From Lineus longissimus (taxonomy: Eukaryota; Nemertea; Pilidiophora; Heteronemertea; Lineidae): DNA of 64,000 bases. Of this stretch, positions 9,945 through 58,456 are shown one piece after another (the first letter of the stretch is position 1; each line of letters begins with the position of its first letter). The stretch spans positions 4,920,756 to 4,984,755 of the forward strand of contig NC_088318.1 of the NCBI RefSeq assembly GCF_910592395.1. Reading direction: 5' to 3'. Below the pieces are notes generated by a model. The model saw nothing but the letters and a program-made list of their open reading frames with translations, made no database searches and was not told the origin of the DNA. A program made the position numbers and the translations under genes.

Positions 9945-10260
9945 CTACGCACGGCCTTATTTACATGCCGATGCTTATTCTGGTCTAATACGTACGGTTT
10001 TATTCGCATCATGCCGACGCTTATACTGGTTTACTACGTACGGCCTTATTTACATGCTGACGCTTATTCAGGTCTAATATATATGTACGGCCTGATTTGC
10101 ATGCTGACCACAACGCTTAGCATGCTCGATGTTCGGCCTCATGATGCTGCCTGATTTGCATGCTGACCTCGGAGCTAATTATCAACATGCTCTTTATCAC
10201 TTTATTTACATGCTGACCGCAAAGCTTTTCATGCTTTATGCAGCCTAATTTGCATGCTGA
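9945..10260. repeat. Degenerate short tandem repeat
   Basis: About five to six imperfect units of 55-60 bp are built around TTTRCATGCTGACC and GCTTATTCTGGTCTAATACG. The last unit abuts the truncated 5' end of the LINE that follows, so the LINE may have inserted at the array edge. Confidence 0.55.
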
Positions 10261-10329
10261 TCTCACACGCGACCAAACGTGTGACTACTGAGGAGCACAT
10301 ATTCCAGGTTAGAAAAAAAGATGACTTGA

Positions 10330-11580
10330 GAAGAAGAAAAAACACAGTAGTGTATATCATTACGTCGTATCTTACAAATAGGAAGCAGAGAGTTGTGATT
10401 AATGGCTCGGAGTCATCACTTTTAGATGTACTGTCTGGTGTGCCGCAAGGGTCAATTTTAGGCCCTCTTTTATTCTTATTGTACGTAAATGATATTGCTG
10501 AGGTCGTTAGTGACGGTACTGCCATGGATCTTTTTGCTGATGATTCCAAAATGTGTAGGGAGATAGAGTCTGTAACCGACTGTCTGCTACTTCAGACCGA
10601 CCTTGATAAATTGTACGCTTGGAGTAAACGGTGGGGCATGACATTTAGCCCAAGCAAATGCATGGTCATGAGTGTTACTAGGAAGTTAAATCCGACACAC
10701 TTCTTTTACAATATCAATGGTTTTGCATTGTCTCGGGTTGATAAATTCAAGGATCTTGGTATTGTCTTTTCTTCGGACCTGTCATGGTCATCTCATGTCA
10801 ATAGTATTGCAAGCAGTGCAAGTAGAATGTGGGGTATGATCAGGCGTGTATGCGGGCGTACTGCAGACGTTAATTTGAATATCATGTTGTATAAATCACT
10901 TGTGCGTAGTCGCCTTGAATATGGTACGGTGGTATTCGACACACATGTGCGACGTGATCTTGAAACTTTAGAGCGTGTCCAGCGGAGGGTGACTCGTCAC
11001 ATTTTAGGCCCTGATATGCCATATGTGGAGCGTCTGCGAGCGTTGTCTCTGCTGCCCCTGTCGTACCGTCGGGAAATCAAGGATCTAGTTTTTATGCACG
11101 ATTCTTATTATAATGTCCTGGATTTTAATGCACGTTTTTATATAACCCCGGCTGTAAGGGGCGACGGTTTACGACTGGCGCAGCCGAGATTCCACTCGGA
11201 GACGTTCGGTGCCTCATACTGGGTGAGGACACCGAAGCTGTGGAACAGCCTCCCGGTCCAATTACATAATTTGAAAAAAATGCATTTTAAATCGTCCCTT
11301 AATGTTTATTATTTTGACAGGTTGGATCGTTTGGATGTCGACGACATGTGCACTTTCGTCACTTTCTGCCGTTGTGCAAACTGTCGGCCCACTTAGTGCG
11401 CATGTCGCCGGCACCCCGACGACACAACCCATATTATCTGGTGCCATATAATAGGTCTCGACCTACATGGTTACCAGTGTAAGGCATGTACGTTTTATTT
11501 TGTTCATAATCCAATGTCTTGTCATGTTATATCAAATATTGTACATGTATTTTACACGAATAAATTAAATTAAATTAAAA
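10330..11580 (+). mobile_element. 5'-truncated non-LTR retrotransposon (LINE) with reverse transcriptase 3' half
   Basis: The reading frame, open from 10254 to its stop at 11396, encodes the C-terminal half of a LINE reverse transcriptase. Visible motifs are SGVPQGSILGPLLFLLY (about residue 65) and the catalytic F-A-D-D in LFADDSKM, followed by thumb and post-thumb sequence (GMTFSPSKC, KDLGIVFSSD, SRLEYG, LERVQRRVTRHI, TPKLWNSLP) typical of the Jockey/CR1 groups. The frame ends in a small Cys-rich tail (CRCANC). The endonuclease domain and N-terminal RT motifs are missing, as expected for incomplete reverse transcription. The 3' end is a (TAAAT)n-like tail at about 11558-11580. The RT frame has no internal stops, so the insertion looks young. 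The exact clade is not assigned. Confidence 0.85.
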
Positions 11581-25660: not shown

Positions 25661-27690
25661 AAGGGAAGCCTGGAGACACGAATCATAGGTTTGCCCAAAC
25701 TCTCGAGAGACACCATGGACTGAAGCCTGGAGACATGAATCTTGGGATTGCCCAAACTCTCAAGAGACACTATGGACTGAAGCCTGGAGACACGAATCAT
25801 AGGTTTGCCCAAACTCTCGAGAGACACCATGGACTGAAGCCTGGAGACATGAATCTTGGGATTGCCCAAACTCTCAAGAGACACTATGGACTGAAGCCTT
25901 GAGACAAGAATCTTGGGTTTGCCCACCCTACCACAGAGACAACATGGACTGAAGCCTAGAGACAAGAATCTTGGGTTTGCCCACCCTACTACAGAGACAA
26001 CATGGACTGAAGCCTAGAGACAAGAATCTTTGGTTTGCCCACCCTACTACAGAGACAACATGGACTGAAGCCTAGAGACACGAACCTTGGGATTGCCCAC
26101 CCTACTACAGAGACAACATGGACTGAAGCCTAGAGACACGAATCTTGGGATTGCCCACCCTACTACAGAGACAACATGGACTGAAGCCTGGAGACACGAA
26201 TCTTGGGTTTGACCAACCTCCTCCAGAGACAGCATGGACTCGAGCCTGGAGACACGTCATGGGCTTGTCCAACCTACTCCAGAGGCAGCATGGACTCGAG
26301 CATGGAGACACGTCATGGGCTTGTCCAACCTCCTCAAGAAACAGCATTGATTCGAGCCTGGAAACACGAATCTTGGGCTTGACCAACCTCCTCCAGAGAC
26401 AGCAAGGACTCGAGCCTGGAGACACGTCATGGGCTTGTCCAACCTCCTCAAGAAACAGCATTGATTCGAGCCTGGAAAAACGAATCTTGGGCTTGACCAA
26501 CCTCCTCCAGAGACAGCAAGGACTCGAGCCTGGAGACACGTCATGGGCTTGTCCAACCTCCTCAAGAGACAGCATTGATTCGAGCCTGGAAACACGAATC
26601 TTGGGCGTGACCAACCTCCTCCAGAGACAGCAAGGACTCGAGCCTGGAGACACGTCATGGGCTTGACCAACCTCCTCAAGAGACAGCATTGATTCGAGCC
26701 TGGAAACACGAATCTTGGGCTTGTCCAACCTCCTCAAGAGACAGCATTGATTCGAGCCTGGAAACACGAATCTTGGGCTTGACCAACCTCCTCCAGAAAC
26801 AGCAAGGACTCGAGCCTGGAGACACGTCATGGGCTTGACCAACCTCCTCAAGAGACAGCATTGATTCGAGCCTGGAAACACGAATCTTGGGCTTGACCAA
26901 CCTCCTCCAGAGACAGCATGGACTCGAGCCTGGAGACACGAATCTTGGGCTTGACCAACATCCTCCAGAGACAGCATGGACTCGAGCCTGGAGACACGAA
27001 TCTTGAGCTTGACCAATCCGCTGCAGAGACAGCATGGACTCGAGCCTGGAGACACGAATCTTGAGCTTGACCAATCCGCTGCAGAGACAGCATGGACTCG
27101 AGCCTGGAGACACGAATCTTGAGCTTGACCAATCCGCTGCAGAGACAGCATGGACTCGAGCCTGGAGACACGAATCTTGGGCTTGACCAACATCCTCCAG
27201 AGACAGCATGGACTCGAGCCTGGAGACACGAATCTTGAGCTTGACCAATCCGCTGCAGAGACAGCATGGACTCGAGCCTGGAGACACGAATCTTGAGCTT
27301 GACCAATCCGCTGCAGAGACAGCATGGACTCGAGCCTGGAGACACGAATCTTGGGCTTGACCAATCCGCTGCAGAGACAGCATGGACTCGAGCCTGGAGA
27401 CACGAATCTTGAGCTTGACCAATCCGCTGCAGAGACAGCATGGACTCGAGCCTGGAGACACGAATCTTGAGCTTGACCAATCCGCTGCAGAGACAGCATG
27501 GACTCGAGCCTGGAGACACGAATCTTGAGCTTGACCAATCCGCTGCAGAGACAGCATGGACTCGAGCCTGGAGATGCGAATCTTGGGCTTGTCCAACCTA
27601 CACTCCAAAGACGGCAAGGACTCAAGCATGGAGACACGAATCTTGGGCTTGACCAACTTCCTCCAGAGACAGCATGGACTTAAGTCTCTA
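25660..27690. repeat. Minisatellite with 57-bp (left) and 58-bp (right) units
   Basis: About 35 units contain AGCCTGGAGACACGAATCTT, GGGCTTGACCAACCTCCTCC and AGAGACAGCATGGACTCG. The left units (25668-26170) measure 57 bp, so one frame repeats every 19 codons. The right units mostly measure 58 bp, so three units give a 58-codon period. All three minus-strand frames, and some on the plus strand, stay open for long distances: the longest is 26105-27637 (minus, 510 codons). Variants alternate in the middle (CGTCATGGGCTTGTCC versus CGAATCTTGGGCTTGACC), which shows higher-order block amplification. There is no splice or start context to support translation, so I treat the frames as by-products. Confidence 0.9.
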
Positions 27691-38078: not shown

Positions 38079-41000
38079 ATGCAGGACCGTTCACTCAAAA
38101 TCATTTTTGGAATCGGAGTGGTGGGATTGCTGATTGGTTGTGCGATGATACCCATTCTGAAGGTGGTCATTCATGAAGAAGTGCTCAAGGTATACAACAG
38201 TTGAAGTTCTGTGGTTATGGGTGATGACATGAGTTGATAACGTGGAAGGGAGGTTCTTTGGAGATATATGTAACTAGGTTGTCTTCAGTAAATCACTAAT
38301 AACTTCCCCTGAAAGTCATTGAATATGAAATCAAATCATGAACTGAAGACAGAGCAACTACATGTATATTCCAAATAATGCTCTTCTTCTGAAAAAAGGT
38401 TTATAAATCTCCTTTCAGTTCAAGGAAGCTTGTCAAACTACTTCAAATTAATGTAATAATGTTGATTACCGGTACAGAATGTTTACCTAACGGACAGTCC
38501 TGGTGGTCCCTCTGAAGCCTACAAGATGTGGATGAAGCCGACAGTACCCATATACATGCAGTTCTATGTGTTTGATGTGGTGAACCCAGCTGAGGTACTG
38601 ACTGGAGAGAAACCCTTCCTGGTACAAAAAGGCCCTTACACATACAGGTAAACTTGGTTAAGTCCTTCGCCCCAACCAAAGATCAAAGAGGCCCATAACT
38701 ACAGTCCAAATCACAATTGACATCTCGTCAATCGCGCAATTGACATCCCGTCAATCGCGTCATGAGCACTTCATTGACGTTCTACCCAGCACGTAATATA
38801 CGCAAAACATTGGCTTGCATTTTGTGTGTCACTGACGCAAAGCAGGATGGATGTCAGTTGTGATTTGGACTGTACTTTAATACCTTTCTGTGCTTTTTCT
38901 AATGAGAGAATTGTTTTACACCATTATAGGATGTCAATCGGGTTATCGACCAGGCGATTCGTCTCCAGCTAGGGTGGAAAAAGGTCTGTCACCAGTTGCT
39001 GCTGTTTCTCAGTTGCAGACGGTGTGTTTGCTAGCCCAGATATTGTTTTAGTTTAAGCATATTTTTATTCATAGAAGAGAATAGGGATTGGACGTAAGTT
39101 TCAAAGAAACTTATAAAATGTCCTTTCCACAGTACAAAGTAATCTACAAATGGTGTAGTAGACAAACATAAGTTTACATACAGGTTTTTTGGTGAAAGAA
39201 GTATGGTGGTGCTTTGTCAACAATTGACACTGTTTTTACAGGGGATCTGGCGGTAGCGGCCTTTGAAGGGAGAATCTATTTGTGCGTATGATAAAAGTCT
39301 GAACAGCGTTCATGATGGATAAATTTTCCTCCAAAGTAAAGCGAAGGTTCCCAGATAATAATATTTGTAAATTTATGTTTGGAATCCAGATATTGTTAGA
39401 AGTGCTTGTGAGATTTTGAATGCTGGTGGGGAGTGAGTTTCAGAATCTGGCACCCTGGCGCCTCACTCTCCAGCCTCAGTAGGTCCCCAGGCCTTGGTTC
39501 GAGGCCGAGACATGGAGAGGCCCCACAGAAGATTTGAGTCAGTACCATGGCGTAAACAGGCATAGCAGCTCCCTCAGGTTCTCGTAAGTTTGGCCAATTG
39601 ATAAACATACGTGTACTAGATGTGTATTTTCTTTCCAGAGAATCCCGTGAGAAAGTGAATATCACTCACAATGGTAACGGAACAGTATCGTATGAAGAAA
39701 TCAAGACCTATAACTTTGTACGAGAGATGTCTGTTGGTGACGATTCTGACAACTTTACGACCGTCAACATACCATTATTGGTGGGTATATTCTGTAATGT
39801 GGCATTTGAACGGAATCGCCATGTCAAGTTAAGATGTATTTCAGTGAAAAGTCACATCATGCAGGCTGTTCTTTAGTGGAATTGACCTTGTGCTATTTGA
39901 CACACTGTCCCTTAATAGTCAAACCACACTCAAGCAAGTCGGGTAGGTTGAGAATTTGCTGACTCTGAAATAATCTTATGCAATGCTGTTCAGTATTAAA
40001 GAAATCGTTGAAAATGTCCAGAGGAATTCTATTTCACAGTTTGCTACATGTATTTATTTCAAGTATTACCTGTCAACTTACTGTGTAACTTGCACTGAGA
40101 GAGATTCGCTCTACGTGTATATTTCCATTCCAGACGCTTGTGGAAGCCCTTAGGTTCGAGACAAAGGTTTTCCAAGACTTAGTCAGCACAGTATTAAAAC
40201 TGTTCAATGAGGATGTTTTTGTAAAGCTCTCCGTGAATGACATCATTTGGGGGTACCATGATGATCTCTTGGCGCTTGGTCACGATGCATTCCCTGACTG
40301 GATCTATACATCTTTCATTGGAGTTTTCAGCAATGTAGGTAGTTTTTTTTGTTAGTTTCTTCTCCTTGTTCCAATTATTGCTCAAACTAAACAAATTGAG
40401 TGTAATATAATTACTTGGGAGGTTTAGAGAATTACACGGCACTGCCGGTTTCTGTATCAAAATGCTTGTGTTAGAAATGGAGAACGGGAGGGTGTGGAGC
40501 TGAAATTTAGACCCTAAGGGTTAAAGGGGTATGCCGTTCGTAATTATTTGTGGTCCAGTTAAATAGAAATCCACTAATACACAATGCCATAGTGCAGTTA
40601 TTATGAATAAAAATTTGTCTAAACTTGGTATTCATAGTATTTGTATATCAGTCTACACAACGGCAATGTTGAAATTTATATTCAGTATGTAGACTGATAT
40701 ACCAATACTATGAATACCAAGTCTAAACAAATTTGTATTCACAATAACTGCACTACGGCATTGTGTATTAGTGGATTTCTATTCGACAGGACCACAAGTA
40801 ATTATGAACGGCGTAGCCCTTTAAGTCTCACTGGATTTAGACGGTCTCTCCCTTTTGAAGATTTAATAGCTCATCTTCACTGTCATGTTTTCACTGGAGG
40901 CACAAATCTCCTGTGATCTTTTGAATATTGGGCCTCTCGCGTCACTCAGTTAAATCTTGAAATTCTTTTGCAGAAAAATCACACGGCCGATGGTGTCTAC

Positions 41001-44000
41001 ACAATCTACACAGGGGAGACAGATACTCTTAAGCTTGGCGTCATCGATAAGTTCAATGGATCAAGTCACCTAAATTTTTGGTCGGATAAATATGCAAATA
41101 TGGTCAATGGAAGTGGTAAGAATTAAAGTGATACTATGATGTGATTTACAACTTGATCACAAATGTAAAGCTCAAATTTTCCATTTTTGATTAGATTTAT
41201 TATAAAATCGCTGAATGTAAACCACCGCAACCGCGGAAATGTTCATGTTGTGACGTCATCAACGAAAACGGCATCAAAGCGAGCCGTCCGGGCAGGATTA
41301 AACCATCAATTTCTAGAAAATGTGCATTTCGATTCGAAAACCTTACCGATTTATGAGAAAGTGACATAGTCATTTGTCAAAAACAGCTAAAACATTATAT
41401 GGTGAAATTTGACACGAGTTACCATTTAAATATTTTTTTGAAGAAAAAACTTAGTGACACAGAGTCACCAATAGAATGAATGAGTGAATGAATATAAGAA
41501 TTTCTATAGTGCCTGAATTAAACGAAAAACTTAAATTCTCAGGCGCTTTACAAAGCAAAACACTCCCTGAAAAGGTGTTGTTTCAGGAGAGTTTTGAAAA
41601 TGTCTATGGAACCAGCAAGCCTGATGTTGGAAGGTAGCTGGTTCCATAGAACCGGTGATGACTTGTAAAAAGAACGGTCACCAAAGGTTTTGCACTTAGT
41701 GCAGGGGACCACCAAAGTTGGAGCAATAACAGAGCGGAGATGGTAGGTGGAATGGTGCCTCAGTCTGACCATATCACACAGGTACGCAGGTGCGACTCCA
41801 TGTATTGCCTTATATGTAAATAAAAGCACTTTGAAAACAATCCTGTATTTAACAGGAAGCCAATGGAGTCGCATGAGAACCGGTGTGATACGATCAAACC
41901 GCGGCACCAGACACACAACGCGAGCTGCAGCATTAAGTGCACGCTGCAGTCTGGAGAGTTGATGTGTAGAAATGCCATATAGAAGGGAATTACAATAATC
42001 AATGTGAGAAGTGACAAAGGCATGAACAAGAGTGGTGGTTGACTCAGGACTGAGGAACCGTCGAATTTGGCGGATCTTATAAAGACCCAGGAAAGCCTTG
42101 GAGCAGACCCTACTAACATGGGTTTCCATAGACATGTTTTTGTCAAAGTAAACACCAAGGTTTCGTACTGATTCGACAGGTGAAATTGAGGCCTCCCCCA
42201 CTCTGATTGGACCCATATCTACCTTCTGGAGCATTTGTCTAGAACCGATAAAAATGAACTCTGTCTTAAGATCATTGATGAGGAGCTCGTTCTCGATCAT
42301 CCACGCGCAGACATCAGCTACACATGCTTCCGATCATAGGGGTCTCTCTTATCTCACAGTACATCGAAAAGGGGGCATTCTGCTGTGTATTCGTTAGGTC
42401 GTTTTCCAAACACTTTGTGAGTACAGTGGAAACTCTCTATTAAGGACACCCTTGAGACTGACAAATGTTGTCCTTAACAGAGAGGTGTCCTGATAAGAGA
42501 GGTTAAATTGAATGTAAGGTACCAAATTGGGACCAAAACTAGTGTCCTTAATAGAGAGGTTGTCCTTAATAGAGAGGTGTCCGCTAAGGGAGGTTCCACT
42601 GTAATTGATACTGAACTGGAGATTCTCACCAAACGCTGCAAGGGTGGAGCTAAAATGTAGGCTAAAACCTAACTGTGGCAGCAGCTGAGGTTTTAGGAGA
42701 AATGACCGCAGCAAATATGACACAAGGAAACTTGATTATATATTTGTATTTTTCAGATGGCACCTTAGGCCCGCCGTTTACGCAAAAGTCTTGGATAGTG
42801 TACACATTTGTATCAGATATTTGTAGGTGAGTTATTTCAAGATTTCTCCCAAATCTTATTAAACGTTGATGGCATAATCTGTTGCGAAGTAGGCAATGCA
42901 GAAAATGCGCACTAGAAAAGAAAACAAGTGATCAAACCTATTGATATGACCGCCATCCGTTTGTAAGCTTTTGATGAGCACTGTCCCGTGCTAAGTGCTA
43001 AATTGTTCCATTTGCATTGTGTGTTTTTTAGAACTGTTGATATATATGTTCAGAATCCTCAAAATAGTTGAAGAGCTCGAAAAGCTGCAATGGTGCATGG
43101 CATCTGCTTAAGTGACAGGTCCCGGATTCAATTCACGACTATTCAGGCGAAAACCCCAGGCTCTTTACGACAGATGGGGCAGTATTAGTCGTCTGTTGTA
43201 TCATGTCTCTAAACCAGAGAAACTAAAATATCATGTGCAGTTGGACGATAGCCTAAAATGAACACTTTCATATGCACAGGTCAACAACTGGCTTTACATG
43301 CTTCCCAAAATTGGTGGCTTGCATTGGAACTAACTTTTTCCCCCTTGTCCGTCATTAAAGGCATTCAAGTGTGTTGGTCAACCATGACTATCTCCTTTGT
43401 CCCTCCACCATAAGGCCTAGTTTCTCCTTATGACATCGCTATTTCGGACACTCCGCGCCGCATTTCTGGAAAGGTGTATATGCCTTTGCCATAAAGGGGT
43501 ATGTCGTTCGTAATTACTGGTGGTCAAAGAAAATAGAAATGCAGTTCTTAAATACATAATACTGCAGTGCAGTTATTATGCTTAAGCTGAAACTTGGCAT
43601 TTATAGAATTTGTATCTATGTCATCACAACATCATTGCAGACATTTATATCTAGAAGGCATTAACTGAATTGGAAAGTTTCAAATTCAATTAGCAATTTC
43701 AAATTTTTAACGAACGGTGTTGGCCTTTAATAGATAACCATACAATGTAACCAGTCGTCAGTACTTCTCTCATATTCTCTTTTCTAGGTCAGTTCCCGGT
43801 ACTTTCGATTGAGAAGAAACCACCGCCCAGGGCAACCGGTTGTACCGTTTCACTGGGCCAGGGTGTAGGCCTTTAACAGATAACCATACAATGTAACCAG
43901 TCGTCAGTACTTCTCTCATATTCTGTTTTCCAGGTCAGTTCCCGGCACTTTCGATGCAGAAGAAACCACAGCCCAGGGCATCCAGTTGTATCGTTTCACT

Positions 44001-47000
44001 GGGCCAGAGTGGGCCTTGGCTGGCGTGGAGGAGAACCCTGACAACAAAGGTTTCTGTACTCCTGCTGGCAACTGTATGGGCAATGGTGTTGTTAATATTA
44101 CTTCTTGTCAATTAAGTAAGTTTCCAAATTTGTTCTCAGTAATCTTACTAATTCAATGAAGAATAGGAAGGTGCCAGTGTAACACATAGGATCAAACACA
44201 AGATCATGTACTCCACAGGTACCCGGGACACCGAGAGACTGGCCACATGTCTGAGCAGTGGATCAATGGCGATAATGCTCTGGGCATCAAGGGAGGAACA
44301 AGAGATGACAGCCAGGTTTTTAAGAAACATAGGCCTGTTTCTCTAATATAGCCATAAAAAAGTACAGTAGAACCTCTCTATTCAGGACACCCTCGGGACT
44401 GACAAGTGCTCTCTTTTATAGAGAGGTGTCCTGATAAGAGAGGTCAAATTGAATGGAAACACCCAATTTGGGGCCAAAACTAGTGTCCCTAATAGAGAGG
44501 GTGTCCTTAATAGAGAGGTGTCCGCTAAGGGAGGTTTTAATGTACATCGAAAGCAAGAAGAAGAAGAGTGACATATCTTTCCTATTTAGTATGCTTTAGA
44601 GTGTAAAAGTACTGTAAAATCACTTCAGAACCACCACAACTTTCCAAATGGTAGCTTCCATAATGATTATAATAATAATGATGTGATAATTCATTTTGAT
44701 ATACAGGTAGTGCCACTTACAAATTCTCTGTGGCACTGTACAAGAGAGAGATATATAAAGAAATATCACCGTAATGATAGTAGGGCTGGTAGCCACTTTA
44801 AAAGTTATAATAACGAACATATATTATTGGCCTGTTGTTGGCCTCATTGAAAGATGTCCACATCTGTTTGCATTATGTTTTGACCTGTCCATGATTACAA
44901 TGTAGCATATTACATGCCAGTTGTGCAGTTAAATAATCCAACCTTGCCAATGCATCAGTGAAAATAATTATTTCCCGTGTCTCATTTTCAGTTGATTTCT
45001 TTCACATTCCAACTGTCGTATCATTACCCCATTTTCTGATGGCTGATAAAAAATACAGAGACGCGGTTTATGGTATGCATCCGGACCCGGTGGAACACAG
45101 AACAGAAATAGGGATAGAACCTGTAAGCATACCGTATGACAATTATAATAAACCTGAAAATATCGGAAGCCATTTTATTTCGTGGTTCTGTGAAATGACA
45201 ACTTTTCGTACCATCACCTGCGGGGTAACGTTGAACACCCCTCCGAAAGAATTGTTATGATAAGAAACATCTGTGTAAGCCGGGAGTTCAAAGTTACCCC
45301 ATGTGATGGTACCTTTAATGAAGCATTTTGACATCTCCGTAATGGTAACTTCAATAAAATTTTCTTTTTCGTATTCAGGGTTTACAAAATGTTCTAATTA
45401 ATACATAAAATGATATTCCCATTCATTCAGTGACATCTTATCTGTTTTGTCCAATTCTTTTCCAGATGACGGGGTTGTCACTAAAAGTTGCCAAGAGGTT
45501 GCAGATTAATATTTTCGTGCAGTATTCTGAGTTTGTCAGGTAAATATGATGACTGAAACTTCCAATTTTAACTGCCAGTCTACAATTTATCAAGTGTGTG
45601 AAAGTGAGGTTGAGAATCGGGTTGTAATTTTTTGTTTTTTATTGGAACTGCCAGTGTAGATACAAACTATTGGTAAGACTGCTGCAGAAGAAAGAAAAAT
45701 TGATATCTCAGCATAGATATTTTGGAAGAAAATCATGTCTTTTGACCAAATCAAGTGTGGCACTCCAATGGAGGGATGCAGTCTAGTACATGTCATTCAT
45801 AGTTGTCAAAATTGAAACTTTCTCATGATTTCTTGTTGTTCCATTTCAGTCAGACCCATAACATTTCAGACACGGTCTTTCCGTTATTTTGGTTGAATGA
45901 GGTGAGCCCTAGATCAAGTTTCTTATGAATGAAAGCTCAAAACAAATCTCTGGCCAAAGACAGGAGATTCGATATGCCATTTTGGAGAAATTTCAAGTGC
46001 TCCTGACTTTTACAAATACTGGTGATTAATTTGCAAGCAATTTCGCTTTATTCTGATGGTACTGGCTACTGTCAGGTGGAAAGTATGTAGTGTTTTGCCT
46101 CACCGTCTATGACTTAAACTGCCCACAGTTATGATTATTGTCACCCAAATGTATTTTCCACAGGAATGAAAGCAAAGTTGACCAGTGCCTCATGGAGTGT
46201 CAGTCAGCACATTCATACATTGTCTGTTTTGAAGAGTCCATGTATGAAGATTAGAACTGCTCTCATCTGCTTTTTACCCTGAAGCCCAAGAAAACAAGAG
46301 TGGTGTTGTTATTTTTGTCACGTGGGATGTTTGTCCGTCTGTTCGTGGTGACTGACAGGTTAGCTGGATTTCAAAAGATCCTCTATGCAATCTATTTCAT
46401 ACTGTCCGGCTGTTCGTGGTGACTGACAGGTTAGCTGGATTTCAAAAGATTGTCTATGCAATATACTTCATACTGTTTAAAGATACAAATGCTATAAAGC
46501 TTGATTTGTTGTTTCAGAGTGCTGTGATAGATGACGCCACTGCCGACATGTTAAAAGGGATGCTGTTTACGCCACTGTTAGTAGGGCATGTGATCATGTA
46601 CCTGTTGATCGGGTCGGGTGGTTATGTCGTTGTTGTCGGAATCGTCTATTTCTTCCTTAGAATCAATAGGGTATGTAAATTCTTTTTGTGAAAAGTCGGA
46701 GAAAATGTCCAGGCCAGTTTGGAGTTCAGTCAAACCTTAAAGGGACTTTATAGGCAGCAGCTAGGTAGGCAAGATAAAGTTACATGAAGTTGCCACCAGG
46801 TGTCTCCCCCATCGCACAGTACATCGAAACTATTGACCCTTCGTATGAGGAATATAATTAGTGTTGAATCAAAGATGACCCTGGGCCCTTACCGTGCATA
46901 TCAGCCACTAAAAGATGGCCAATTTGACCCCCCCTGCTCCTCCCTATAGTCCCATTTTAAGCTTCCATATTTGATTCACTGGGTGATATGAATAAAGGCT

Positions 47001-53344: not shown

Positions 53345-54365
53345 CTATAGCACAAGAGACAAACAGCTAATAGTGTGAAAGATTTGATAGAATGTCAAGA
53401 GAGCACGAGAGACAAACTAAGCTAATAGTGTGAAAGATTTGATAGAATGTCAAGAGAGCACGAGAGACAAACTAAGCTAATAGTGTGAAAGATTTGATAG
53501 AATGTCAAGAGAGCACGAGAGACAAACTAAGCTGATAGTGTGAAAGATTTGATAGAATGTCAAGAGAGCACGAGAGACAAACTAAGCTGATAGTGTGAAA
53601 GATTTGATAGAATGTCAAGAGAGCACGAGAGACAAACTAAGCTAATTGTGTGAAAGATTTGATAGAATGTCAAGAGAGCACGAGAGACAAACTAAGCTAA
53701 TAGTGTGAAAGATTTGATAGAACGTCAAGAGAGCACGAGAGACAAACAGCTAATAGTGTGAAAGATTTGATAGAATGTCAAGAGAGCACGAGAGACAAAC
53801 AGCTAATAGTGTGAAAGATTTGATAGAATGTCAAGAGAGCACGAGAGACAAACTAAGCTAATTGTGTGAAAGATTTGATAGAATGTCAAGAGAGCACGAG
53901 AGACAAACTAAGCTAATAGTGTGAAAGATTTGATAGAACGTCAAGAGAGCACGAGAGACAAACTAAGCCGATAGTGTGAAAGATTTGATAGAATGTCAAG
54001 AGAGCACGAGAGACAAACTAAGCTAATTGTGTGAAAGATTGGATAGAATGTCAAGAGAGCACGAGAGACAAACTAAGCTAATAGTGTGAAAGATTTGATA
54101 GAATGTCAAGAGAGCACGAGAGACAAACTAAGCTGATAGTGTGAAAGATTTGATAGAACGTCAAGAGAGCACGAGAGACAAACTAAGCTGATAGTGTGAA
54201 AGATTTGATAGAACGTCAACAGAGCACGAGAGACAAACTAAGCTGATAGTGTGAAAGATTTGATAGAATGTCAACAGAGCACGAGAGACAAACTAAGCTG
54301 ATAATGTGAAAGATTTGATAGAATGTCAACAGAGCACGAGAGACAAACTAAGCTGATAGTTCCCG
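53345..54365. repeat. Satellite, 55-bp unit (about 18 copies)
   Basis: Units read GAGCACGAGAGACAAACTAA, GCTAATAGTGTGAAAGATTT, GATAGAATGTCAAGA. A minority of units lack three bases (AAACAGCTAA, 52 bp). Point variants (TAATAG/TGATAG, AATGTC/AACGTC, CAAGAG/CAACAG) change gradually along the array, with the CAACAG form confined to the right end. That pattern suggests local unit exchange. Confidence 0.95.
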
Positions 54366-55160: not shown

Positions 55161-55166
55161 TTTATT
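55161..55166 (-). terminator. Polyadenylation signal of the MsrA gene
   Basis: AATAAA on the minus strand, about 540 nt after the stop codon at 55706-55708 and 190 nt after the SECIS core. It is the first canonical hexamer I see downstream of the SECIS. Confidence 0.5.
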
Positions 55167-55334: not shown

Positions 55335-55425
55335 TCCTCCATGCATGAAGTAACATCATCCTCACAGTTTCAGCAATACTGAGTTAACCGTGAAAAGTCA
55401 TAAGAGGAGAACTTGCACCGATCTG
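55335..55425 (-). promoter_or_regulatory. SECIS element (form 2) in the 3' UTR of the MsrA gene
   Basis: Read on the minus strand. The 5' core is ATGA at 55401-55398, followed by one C, then helix strand TTTTCACGGTT (55396-55386). Unpaired AA (55385-55384) and C follow. The ministem is TCAG (55382-55379), loop TATTG, CTGA (55373-55370). The helix strand AACTGTGAGGA (55369-55359) pairs with the first strand over 11 bp (two or three G-U). The 3' core is TGAT at 55358-55355. This matches the eukaryotic SECIS consensus: AUGA and UGAU forming the SBP2-binding non-Watson-Crick quartet, 11-14 bp helix, AA in a bulge under a short ministem (form 2). A lower helix is plausible from GTTCTCC (about 55414-55408) with GGAGGAC. 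It sits about 305 nt past the stop codon, a usual distance. Confidence 0.88.
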
Positions 55426-55705
55426 GTTTTCTAAGCCAAACGAATTGCCCTGTTGTCGCAAGATATTTACAACATCGAGGCTTTTGTGGAGACTAATAAC
55501 AGCATTTTATTAAGATCGTGACGTCCTGTCCTACACTAATGTAAAACAGTAGGCCTAAAGCATTAAATCTGTCTTCTAAACAGTAATTAAAAACAATTGT
55601 CTATTGGGTATTCCATCTTGACAGTCAGTATTAGCAAGTATGGATTAAATAATCTATACTTAGTATTAGTCCATGATACGTATCTTATAGCTTAGATATT
55701 TTTGC

Positions 55706-58456
55706 TCACACATTATCCACAACATATTCTGTCTGTTCCTCACTCAATCCCATCTTCTTGCTCTCCTGAAAAATAAAGATAAAAATATGTTGATTGTCAT
55801 ATTCGTATTCTTGTCAAATTGTCAAATGAAATGCCATCCATGGCCGGATAGAAAAAGTGGGGCTAAAGGTACACTGTACACGTAAGCAAGGCCATTATGG
55901 CCTTTGGATCCTCCTATACAAATTATATTACATGTAGCAAAAACAGGTTACTCACTCTCTCCAAACTTGTTATCACCAGCCTGCCCTGGCATAGGCCCTT
56001 GTGTTCAGATCAAGATTAAAAAATCTCAGTTGATTTAGAGGACTGACCACATCCAGAGATATAAATCTTCGTACTCTAACAAGATACTACCCTGGGCCTT
56101 ATTGTGAAATGGATATGAGCAGCATCCCTACTGAGTGACTGCCCCCCCCCCCCACCCATTTGCAGTGCCACTATTACATGAAAACGTACCCTCGCAAATT
56201 GGTGCATTTGTCCATAGCCACCAATGTAACCATTGAGCCTGGCAGCGATGTGTGACTTGATCAAGTCCTCATCACCCAAACGGAGACTGTTGAACAGAGA
56301 TGGATGCTGCCGGAGGAGGTACTTCTGATGATAGCTGAAAACAAGGTAGCAAAATAGTATACCAGGAAGCATGACTCGCAGAGTTCCCGTAACTAAGTAT
56401 TGGTTGCACTTACAAGTCAGAAAGTCCCTTGACAAAACGCCAAGGATATCAGTCAGAATTTGTGGCGTTCAATTATAGAGACCAGCCATTCGGGCTTCGC
56501 CTCAAGCTTGAGGCAGCTTTTAGCACCACAACCAAACGGATGTGATACTGACAGCCAATTTTTTTTCCAGACATGATGCCTGGAAGCGAAGTTCAATCAT
56601 CCTTTGTCGACACTGCTGTTAATGACCATGATGCGATGCTTGACGTACCAATCTGAGACAATGCGTTATTACATGAATGACTTGTAGGCAGGATCAGTGA
56701 CCAATTTGATCACTCTTCTGGCACATCTGATGGGCTGCCTCATCCACGTGTCAGCATCTTGCATAGAAAGGGTAGTCATGCGTTCAGCAGTGGTGTGGGG
56801 CGAGATTAAGTGATTGATCACAAGCGCGGGCAGTTCAGCATACAGTGGAACCTCCCTTAGCGGACACCTCTCTATTAAGGACTATAGTTTTGGTCCAAAA
56901 TTGGTTGTTTCCATTCAATTTGAACTCTCTAACTAGGACACTTAAGGACACCACTTGTCAGTCCCAAGGGTGTCCTCAATAGAGAGGTTCTGCCGTATTT
57001 GTAATTGTTAAAGGCAGCATATTGGGCGGGAGTTAAAGGGACGCTATGACATGTATGAGACGACGGCTAGAGAGACCAGAGACCAACGAGAGGACAGCCA
57101 ATTGCTTACTTTTCAGCGTCGTAAAATGTTTCCGCTGGTAAAATCTTCGTCTGAATCGTCTTCGACTTCGACCTCTGTTGATCAACCATACTCTGCTCTG
57201 CAAGATCCTTCTGCTCATCGTCATGGAAGAAAATGGCGGACATGTACTGCCGAGATTTACACGATGTTGTGTCGTGATTCTTCCAGAACATAGTCAGTAA
57301 CTTCTCGTAAGATGTTTGAGCTGGGTCGTAGTCGATATCCACAGTTTCTGTATGGTCACCCCTGGAAGACAGCATATTTGAGATTTAGTTTCATAATTTT
57401 TATCTATTTCATCTTTCATTAGCGGCATCACGGCAGTCCAGGGTAGGGCATTTAGTTGCACATATTCTTTGGAAGCCTGTCCCTGGACCTGGACTAAATC
57501 GACTAAAAATGTTCTCAAGATAAGGATAAGGCTGTGTCACAATGACACATCAACATTCGAAATCTCCTTTGAACTTTTACATCATTTACCATTACATTAT
57601 ACATGTACAATGCTGTACAACAAGAATAGTTTATTGATAAGGCCACGTGTTTTTTATTTCTTGGTTTACGGGACCGACCGACTTGCTTTTTTGGGATTTT
57701 GGAGAAAAAAATAAAATCTGAAAATCATCGACTTTTTTATTTTATTTTCCACCCGACCCATCATAATTAGATAAAATAATGAGAAATAAAATAAAATCCA
57801 CTGTATAGAGCAGTGTGATAACCAATGTTTGTGCACTTTCACAACTTATCAGCCATCTAGATGAGGGAAATAGCCCCGACTAAGACATTGCGCCTTGTTC
57901 TGAAAAAAAGTGAACTTTGATTCCAGCAGTATTTGGTTAATTTAATTTCTTCCGATCATACATAGCTATTTGGGTTATTTTTATTTTTTATTTTATTTCG
58001 ACCACCCGACCATACATTTTTAAAAGCTCTTCCCGTAAACCAAGAAATAAAAAACATGTAGCCTAATCATCTGTCATGGGATGATTCTTGACCTGTTGGA
58101 ATCTAGAGAACTAAATACTATGTGATAAGGCAATTCGAAAAACATCCAAAGATGAGTCATCCTCTTGCAAACAGGGCCGGCAACACGACTTCTCCTTACG
58201 CATGTTTCCGAGGGAGTATGTATCGAGTGAAATGGCCTGATATTGTCAGGATGATTGAAAATGAGTCTCATTCAGTTAAAATGGTTATTTATACTTACAG
58301 ACTATGGTAGGTGGGGAACTTTTTAGTTCCGCCTGTATAACCCACCCTTGTATGGATGACCCCGGGGGCACAGCCGAACTGTGCCTCCGGGAACCAAAAT
58401 CAGCTAAGGGCAAATGTTGCCTTTTTTGTTTTCACGTCTGGCTCGTACAATGGCAT
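55706..58456 (-). CDS. msrA: Selenocysteine-containing peptide methionine sulfoxide reductase A (Sec-MsrA), four coding exons
   Basis: MsrA reduces methionine-S-sulfoxide in free or protein-bound form. Coding exons (minus): 58456-58299, 57361-57110, 56334-56190 and 55765-55706. All junctions are GT-AG with phases 2, 2 and 0, giving 204 residues, a normal MsrA length. The catalytic motif, GCFW in most MsrAs, reads S-TGA-F-W. The in-frame TGA (58402-58400) falls exactly at the nucleophilic Cys (residue 19) and FPEAQFG follows with the conserved Glu. Downstream are GVIHTRVGYTGGTKK, PTYHSLGDHTETVDIDYDP (across intron 1), FWKNHD, RQYMSAIFF, ILPAETFYDAENYHQKYLLR (across intron 2) and GYIGGYG, with no other stop. 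The ATG has A at -3. The exon also extends in frame to an acceptor at 58472, so a 5' exon may exist. With the 3' UTR SECIS, I infer Sec insertion. MITE copy 6 lies in intron 2. Confidence 0.9.
56841..56997. mobile_element. MITE family A, copy 6
   Basis: TACAGTGGAACCTCCCTTAG at the left, AGAGAGGTTCTGCCGTA at the right, about 157 bp, with a small internal deletion relative to the other copies. It lies in intron 2 of the MsrA gene. Confidence 0.75.
58400..58402 (-). other. msrA: Selenocysteine (UGA) codon of MsrA
   Basis: TGA read in frame between AGC (Ser) and TTT (Phe), at the position of the catalytic Cys in the MsrA motif G-C-F-W. Exon 1 stays open from the acceptor at 58472 to the donor at 58298 except for this codon. 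The codons on both sides are typical MsrA residues, which argues against a frame error. Confidence 0.88.

Follow-up and report, generated by a model that had tools for sequence, protein, structure and literature searches.

A predicted selenocysteine-containing methionine sulfoxide reductase A in the ribbon worm Lineus longissimus

Introduction

A gene for methionine sulfoxide reductase A (MsrA) lies on the minus strand of a 64,000-nt stretch of ribbon-worm DNA (the window; 42% GC, no N), and its reading frame is interrupted by a TGA at the position of the catalytic nucleophile. Does this TGA encode selenocysteine (Sec), or does it reflect an inactivated gene, a product that starts further downstream, or an error in the sequence? 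In the MsrA reaction, as described in excerpts of work on the clostridial enzyme, the nucleophile attacks methionine-S-sulfoxide and methionine is released, and the nucleophile, now oxidised, is then reduced (PMC4479559). A sequence-only reading of the window had proposed a Sec-containing MsrA. Here, we analyze the structure of the gene, the active site of its product, the catalytic codon in its relatives and the 3' region.

Results

Structure of the MsrA gene

Four exons of the minus strand, when joined, form a CDS of 615 nt, encoding 204 residues and a stop. The gene extends from the ATG at 58456 to the last base of the final TGA at 55706.

58299..58456, minus strand: exon 1, from the ATG to the donor GTAAGT, with residues 1-52 and 2 bases of codon 53; by homology to MsrA proteins, it contains Sec19 (predicted), Cys29 and Tyr50
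58400..58402, minus strand: TGA codon 19, predicted selenocysteine at the catalytic position (SUFWFPE)
57110..57361, minus strand: exon 2, with Glu58, Cys87, Gln91 and Tyr92
56190..56334, minus strand: exon 3, with His139 and Tyr142 and the greater part of the helical domain (PF20939 at residues 156-200)
55706..55765, minus strand: exon 4, with the terminal stop codon TGA

The three introns, of 937, 775 and 424 nt, all follow the GT...AG rule. Joining and translating the exons showed that the exon coordinates of the sequence-only reading are exact. The joined CDS has in-frame stops at codon 19 (TGA, 58402-58400) and codon 205 only, which agrees with the earlier description of a four-exon frame with intact splice sites and downstream exons, whose sole internal stop is a TGA at the catalytic codon. 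The motif given for this site needs correction: the TGA is indeed at the catalytic position, but the surrounding motif is SUFWFPE rather than GCFW. Meanwhile, an acceptor-like CAG is located 15 nt 5' of the ATG and the reading frame is open there, so a further exon 5' of exon 1 is possible.

The change from TGC or TGT to TGA takes a single base, and a nonsense mutation might have inactivated an ordinary Cys-MsrA, either as a newly formed pseudogene or as an allele carried by the sequenced individual. Such an inactivated gene is hard to reconcile with the intact state of the four exons, their splice sites and the remaining active-site residues.

Several other features are found in the window. 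Two plus-strand frames, 39556-39873 and 44937-45257, match CD36 (Pfam PF01130) and may be exons of a single scavenger-receptor-like gene; between them is a tandem duplication of 146 bp (43716-44011). A 58-bp tandem repeat with 35 copies (25667-27680) keeps long open frames of up to 524 codons, and a second tandem array of 55-bp units occupies 53349-54360. At 10179-11393, a match to the reverse transcriptase domain (PF00078) probably marks a retrotransposon remnant.

Domains and active site of the predicted protein

The sequence-only reading had suggested a search of the joined exons against MsrA proteins as a check, and this search returned two MsrA domains as well as solved MsrA chains. Residues 12-147 match Pfam PMSR (PF01625; 142.6 bits, E 1.5e-41; curated cut-off 23.7), and residues 156-200 match MsrA_helical (PF20939; 46.8 bits, E 2.5e-12; cut-off 23.7), a family titled 'Selenoprotein methionine sulfoxide reductase A, helical domain'. 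Among solved structures, sequence comparison ranks the MsrA chains 7c13_A, 4u66_A and 4lwj_A highest (E about 5e-47); the titles of 4u66 and 4lwj name Clostridium oremlandii.

Excerpts of the structural work on the Clostridium oremlandii Sec-MsrA place Phe17, Trp18, Tyr47, Glu55, Gln89, Tyr90, His137 and Tyr140 at the active site (PMC4333827). The equivalents are all present in the worm protein, namely Phe20, Trp21, Tyr50, Glu58, Gln91, Tyr92, His139 and Tyr142, with the register of this correspondence read from the sequence alignment to the PDB chains. The AlphaFold model of a homologue (P0022, not the worm protein itself) has a mean pLDDT of 94.8, and a Foldseek search with this model placed the Clostridium oremlandii structures 4lwj, 4lwm, 4lwk and 4u66 at the top. 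P0022 carries Cys at the positions matching worm residues 19, 29 and 87.

The public record of the gene

The genome of Lineus longissimus is reportedly described in a paper of its own (PMC8593623). The public protein record 'peptide methionine sulfoxide reductase-like [Lineus longissimus]' (P0014) is 100% identical to the predicted protein over residues 77-204. It starts with MFWKNHD at Met77, and exon 1, the catalytic codon and the early part of exon 2 are absent. The sequence-only reading had anticipated that annotation would truncate the gene, and this record of 128 aa bears out the expectation. Taken at face value, the annotated start would mean that the true product begins at Met77 and that exon 1 is untranslated. 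A product of this kind, without residue 19, Tyr50 and Glu58, would be no MsrA by known chemistry, and the sequence of exon 1 is kept in homologues. We consider a true start at Met77 extremely improbable and regard the record as a concrete annotation error, in which 128 aa stand for 204 and the catalytic residue is lost.

The catalytic codon in relatives

The homologue search gave 1280 proteins with E up to 0.001, and the counts of homologues use the 120 listed. Among these 120 of 1280, the residue at the catalytic position is Trp in 52 and Cys in 37, while the remaining 31 show another residue or none. The motif SWFWFPE occurs in 46 of the 52 Trp-type proteins. Because a Trp that replaces the nucleophile is expected to kill the enzyme, we infer that these Trp residues represent TGA codons translated as Trp by gene callers. 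P0001, which is 70% identical over its full length, is of the Trp type. In the records of Lytechinus (sea urchin), Amphimedon (sponge) and Nematostella (sea anemone), the protein starts at the residue directly after the catalytic codon, and the Acanthaster (sea star) record starts one residue later than these three.

For prokaryotes, the codon was read by alignment in the best 80 of 545 confirmed loci (L001-L080). It is TGA in 66 of these 80 loci, TGC or TGT in 13 and unreadable in one (L015); no other stop was found in the aligned part of the 79 readable loci. TGA-bearing records among the best 80 of 545 include titles of Deltaproteobacteria, Chloroflexi, Nitrospirae and Planctomycetota. As judged from these codons and residues, Sec seems to be common in helical-domain MsrA. 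The prokaryotic counts fit a family of this kind, and the tree leaves the direction of change unsettled. In viral contigs, 17 pattern matches were obtained, with no relative among them.

These comparisons bear on two of the alternatives. The stop does not lie at a random position: 66 of the best 80 of 545 prokaryotic relatives likewise have TGA as this codon. If the worm TGA were a sequencing or assembly error for TGC or TGT, the error would have to strike exactly this codon, in a gene that also has the SECIS-like element described below; we find such a coincidence barely credible. The closest full-length homologues, among those listed, are of the Trp (TGA) type, which also argues against a pseudogene.

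A SECIS-like element in the 3' region

A canonical-looking type II SECIS-like element lies in the predicted 3' UTR, between two AATAAA signals.

55506..55511, minus strand: proximal AATAAA, 5' of the SECIS-like element; its use would remove the element
55355..55401, minus strand: SECIS-like element, type II, supported by pattern scan, shuffles and fold, with no Rfam match
55161..55166, minus strand: distal AATAAA; a message ending past here retains the SECIS-like element

The element begins 305 nt 3' of the stop codon, ahead of the distal AATAAA, and consists of AUGA, an 11-bp stem, an unpaired AAC, a small apical hairpin and UGAU. We take this order of motifs to be that of type II eukaryotic SECIS elements; bacterial Sec insertion relies on a different kind of SECIS. 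The signals on both sides mean that alternative polyadenylation could in principle remove the element.

Scanning both strands of the whole window with a pattern that was written after the element had been spotted by eye, and that is uncalibrated on known SECIS elements, gave two matches, of which 55401-55355 has the longer stem (11 versus 9). With the window shuffled 40 times at constant dinucleotide content, the expectation is 0.075 matches with a stem of at least 11 per 128 kb. The 47-nt core folds with -15.0 kcal/mol (z -4.09), and 0 of 200 shuffles are equally stable; the z values of the 39-nt and 57-nt cores are -3.96 and -2.83, and a longer fold, of 91 nt including the element, lacks significance (z -0.92). 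The canonical look of the element is not matched in Rfam, however: cmscan of 3.8 kb and of 101 nt with E up to 10 gave no SECIS match. The Rfam matches listed in these two scans (6 and 1) are all under the gathering scores of their families and were taken as chance.

A correctly placed SECIS-like element is a further point against a nonsense mutation in a Cys-MsrA, and we think a pseudogene or a defective allele very unlikely. The SECIS-like element, the match to the clostridial active site, and the relatives with TGA or with Trp that presumably stands for TGA support the earlier proposal of a Sec-MsrA. On this evidence, the ribbon-worm MsrA gene very probably encodes a selenoprotein, whose UGA codon 19 would be recoded to Sec at the active site. 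As for other parts of the Sec system, no tRNA was detected within the 64,000-nt window, and an excerpt of a review mentions a Sec-rich SELENOP in Nemertea.

Additional cysteines near the active site

Besides the predicted Sec19, the worm MsrA carries two cysteines, at positions 29 and 87. Cys87 sits four residues before Gln91-Tyr92, which corresponds to the clostridial Gln89-Tyr90. This setting, taken together with the distribution below, hints at Cys87 as a candidate resolving cysteine, and the sequence evidence for it is descriptive.

A Cys in this loop, at position 85, 87 or 88 in worm numbering, is found in 43 of the 52 Trp (TGA)-type versus 3 of the 37 Cys-type proteins among the 120 listed of 1280 homologues, and one of the three Cys-form carriers is an insect (P0110). 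At the best 80 of 545 prokaryotic loci, the loop Cys occurs in 13 of 66 TGA loci versus 0 of 13 Cys loci. Adding the prokaryotes and the worm to the listed homologues results in 57 of 119 versus 3 of 50. The contrast is weaker for Cys29, which is present in 35 of 52 Trp-type versus 6 of 37 Cys-type proteins (120 listed of 1280), in 1 of 66 TGA loci versus 0 of 13 Cys loci (best 80 of 545), and in 37 of 119 versus 6 of 50 after the prokaryotes and the worm are added. All these counts omit L015 and the 31 of the 120 listed proteins that have neither Cys nor Trp at the catalytic position.

The loop Cys is no general need of a Sec-MsrA, because it is absent from 9 of the 52 Trp-type proteins (120 listed) and from 53 of the 66 prokaryotic TGA loci (best 80 of 545). 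The trees contain only two or three well-supported independent pairs, which are too few to test the association between Sec and the loop Cys, so this association is descriptive only. Shared descent can explain the distribution of the loop Cys.

In L036 (1-505), a locus from a Trueperaceae MAG, one gene that is cut by the contig end combines the TGA, Cys29 and a Lys-Cys loop. This combination of TGA, Cys29 and loop Cys resembles many animal forms. The L036 frame continues into what we take to be sequence resembling cell-wall enzymes, possibly a misjoin.

Discussion

Proposed reaction and route of reduction

We infer the recoding, the catalysis and the reduction route of the worm MsrA from the features above and from the clostridial enzyme. 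UGA at codon 19 would be recoded to Sec via the 3' SECIS element. Sec19 would then attack the sulfoxide of Met-S-O, aided by Tyr50, Glu58, Gln91 and Tyr92. Met would be released, and Sec19 would become a selenenic acid. A glutaredoxin-like donor might reduce this selenenic acid directly, as it does in the clostridial enzyme; more speculatively, Sec19 might first form a selenenylsulfide with Cys87 in the loop and be reduced by this route.

We extend the latter route, as a tentative and rather doubtful proposal drawn from the sequence comparison, to the animal helical-domain Sec-MsrAs. Unlike the clostridial 1-Cys(Sec) enzyme, these proteins would use the loop Cys for resolution, forming a Sec-Cys selenenylsulfide, and the loop Cys would have been lost when Cys replaced Sec in insects. 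With the same reservation, the resolving residue might lie in the loop that precedes the catalytic Gln-Tyr, a site that other MsrAs are not known to use. The literature matches listed for a resolving cysteine in Sec-MsrA include the clostridial work, and none of those listed deals with an animal Sec-MsrA.

Comparison with known MsrA enzymes

Insect MsrA_helical proteins belong to the same family as the worm enzyme, and the named insect records listed are 51-55% identical to it. The insect form has Cys at the catalytic position, whereas the worm has TGA. In E. coli and bovine MsrA, the resolving cysteines are located near the C-terminus. These enzymes of the 3-Cys type share the PMSR catalytic domain with the worm protein, and excerpts of PMC4479559 describe their resolving cysteines as two in number. 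According to excerpts of PMC4333827, they have no helical domain, in contrast to the worm protein.

The Sec-MsrA of Clostridium oremlandii (4lwj, 4lwm, 4u66) is like the worm protein in the position of Sec, the active-site residues and the C-terminal helical domain, so far as excerpts of PMC4479559 and PMC4333827 describe it. Excerpts of PMC4479559 state that the clostridial enzyme contains no Cys, unlike the worm protein with its Cys29 and Cys87. They also report that the clostridial Sec-MsrA is reduced by glutaredoxin and not by thioredoxin, that it is reduced through a homodimer as well, and that its activity is 20-fold higher in the Sec form than in the Cys form (PMC4479559). Many animal Sec-MsrAs carry loop cysteines that are absent from this characterised selenoenzyme, which raises the testable question of how the animal enzymes are re-reduced.

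Sec-MsrA has been described in algae and a diatom (excerpts of PMC2375036). In animals, Sec-MsrA is already published (PMC3473315; PMC4244043), and the sequence-only reading overrated the novelty of the worm gene. The excerpts of PMC3473315 term it widespread in marine invertebrates and list it in Amphimedon, Trichoplax, Nematostella, Capitella, with two copies of which one is incomplete, and Branchiostoma, but not in Lottia. Excerpts of PMC4244043 add Strigamia (centipede), Daphnia pulex and Ixodes (tick), again with Branchiostoma (amphioxus), and propose an ancestral Sec form with separate changes to Cys in insects and vertebrates. No nemertean Sec-MsrA is among the literature matches listed from a search that left most subscription journals outside. 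As far as searched, Sec-MsrA is new for Nemertea, although its kind is already known. As those papers describe the marine-invertebrate and arthropod forms, the worm enzyme is like them in having UGA at the catalytic codon and differs from the published animals in its phylum, Nemertea; a nemertean is thereby added to the animals with Sec-MsrA.
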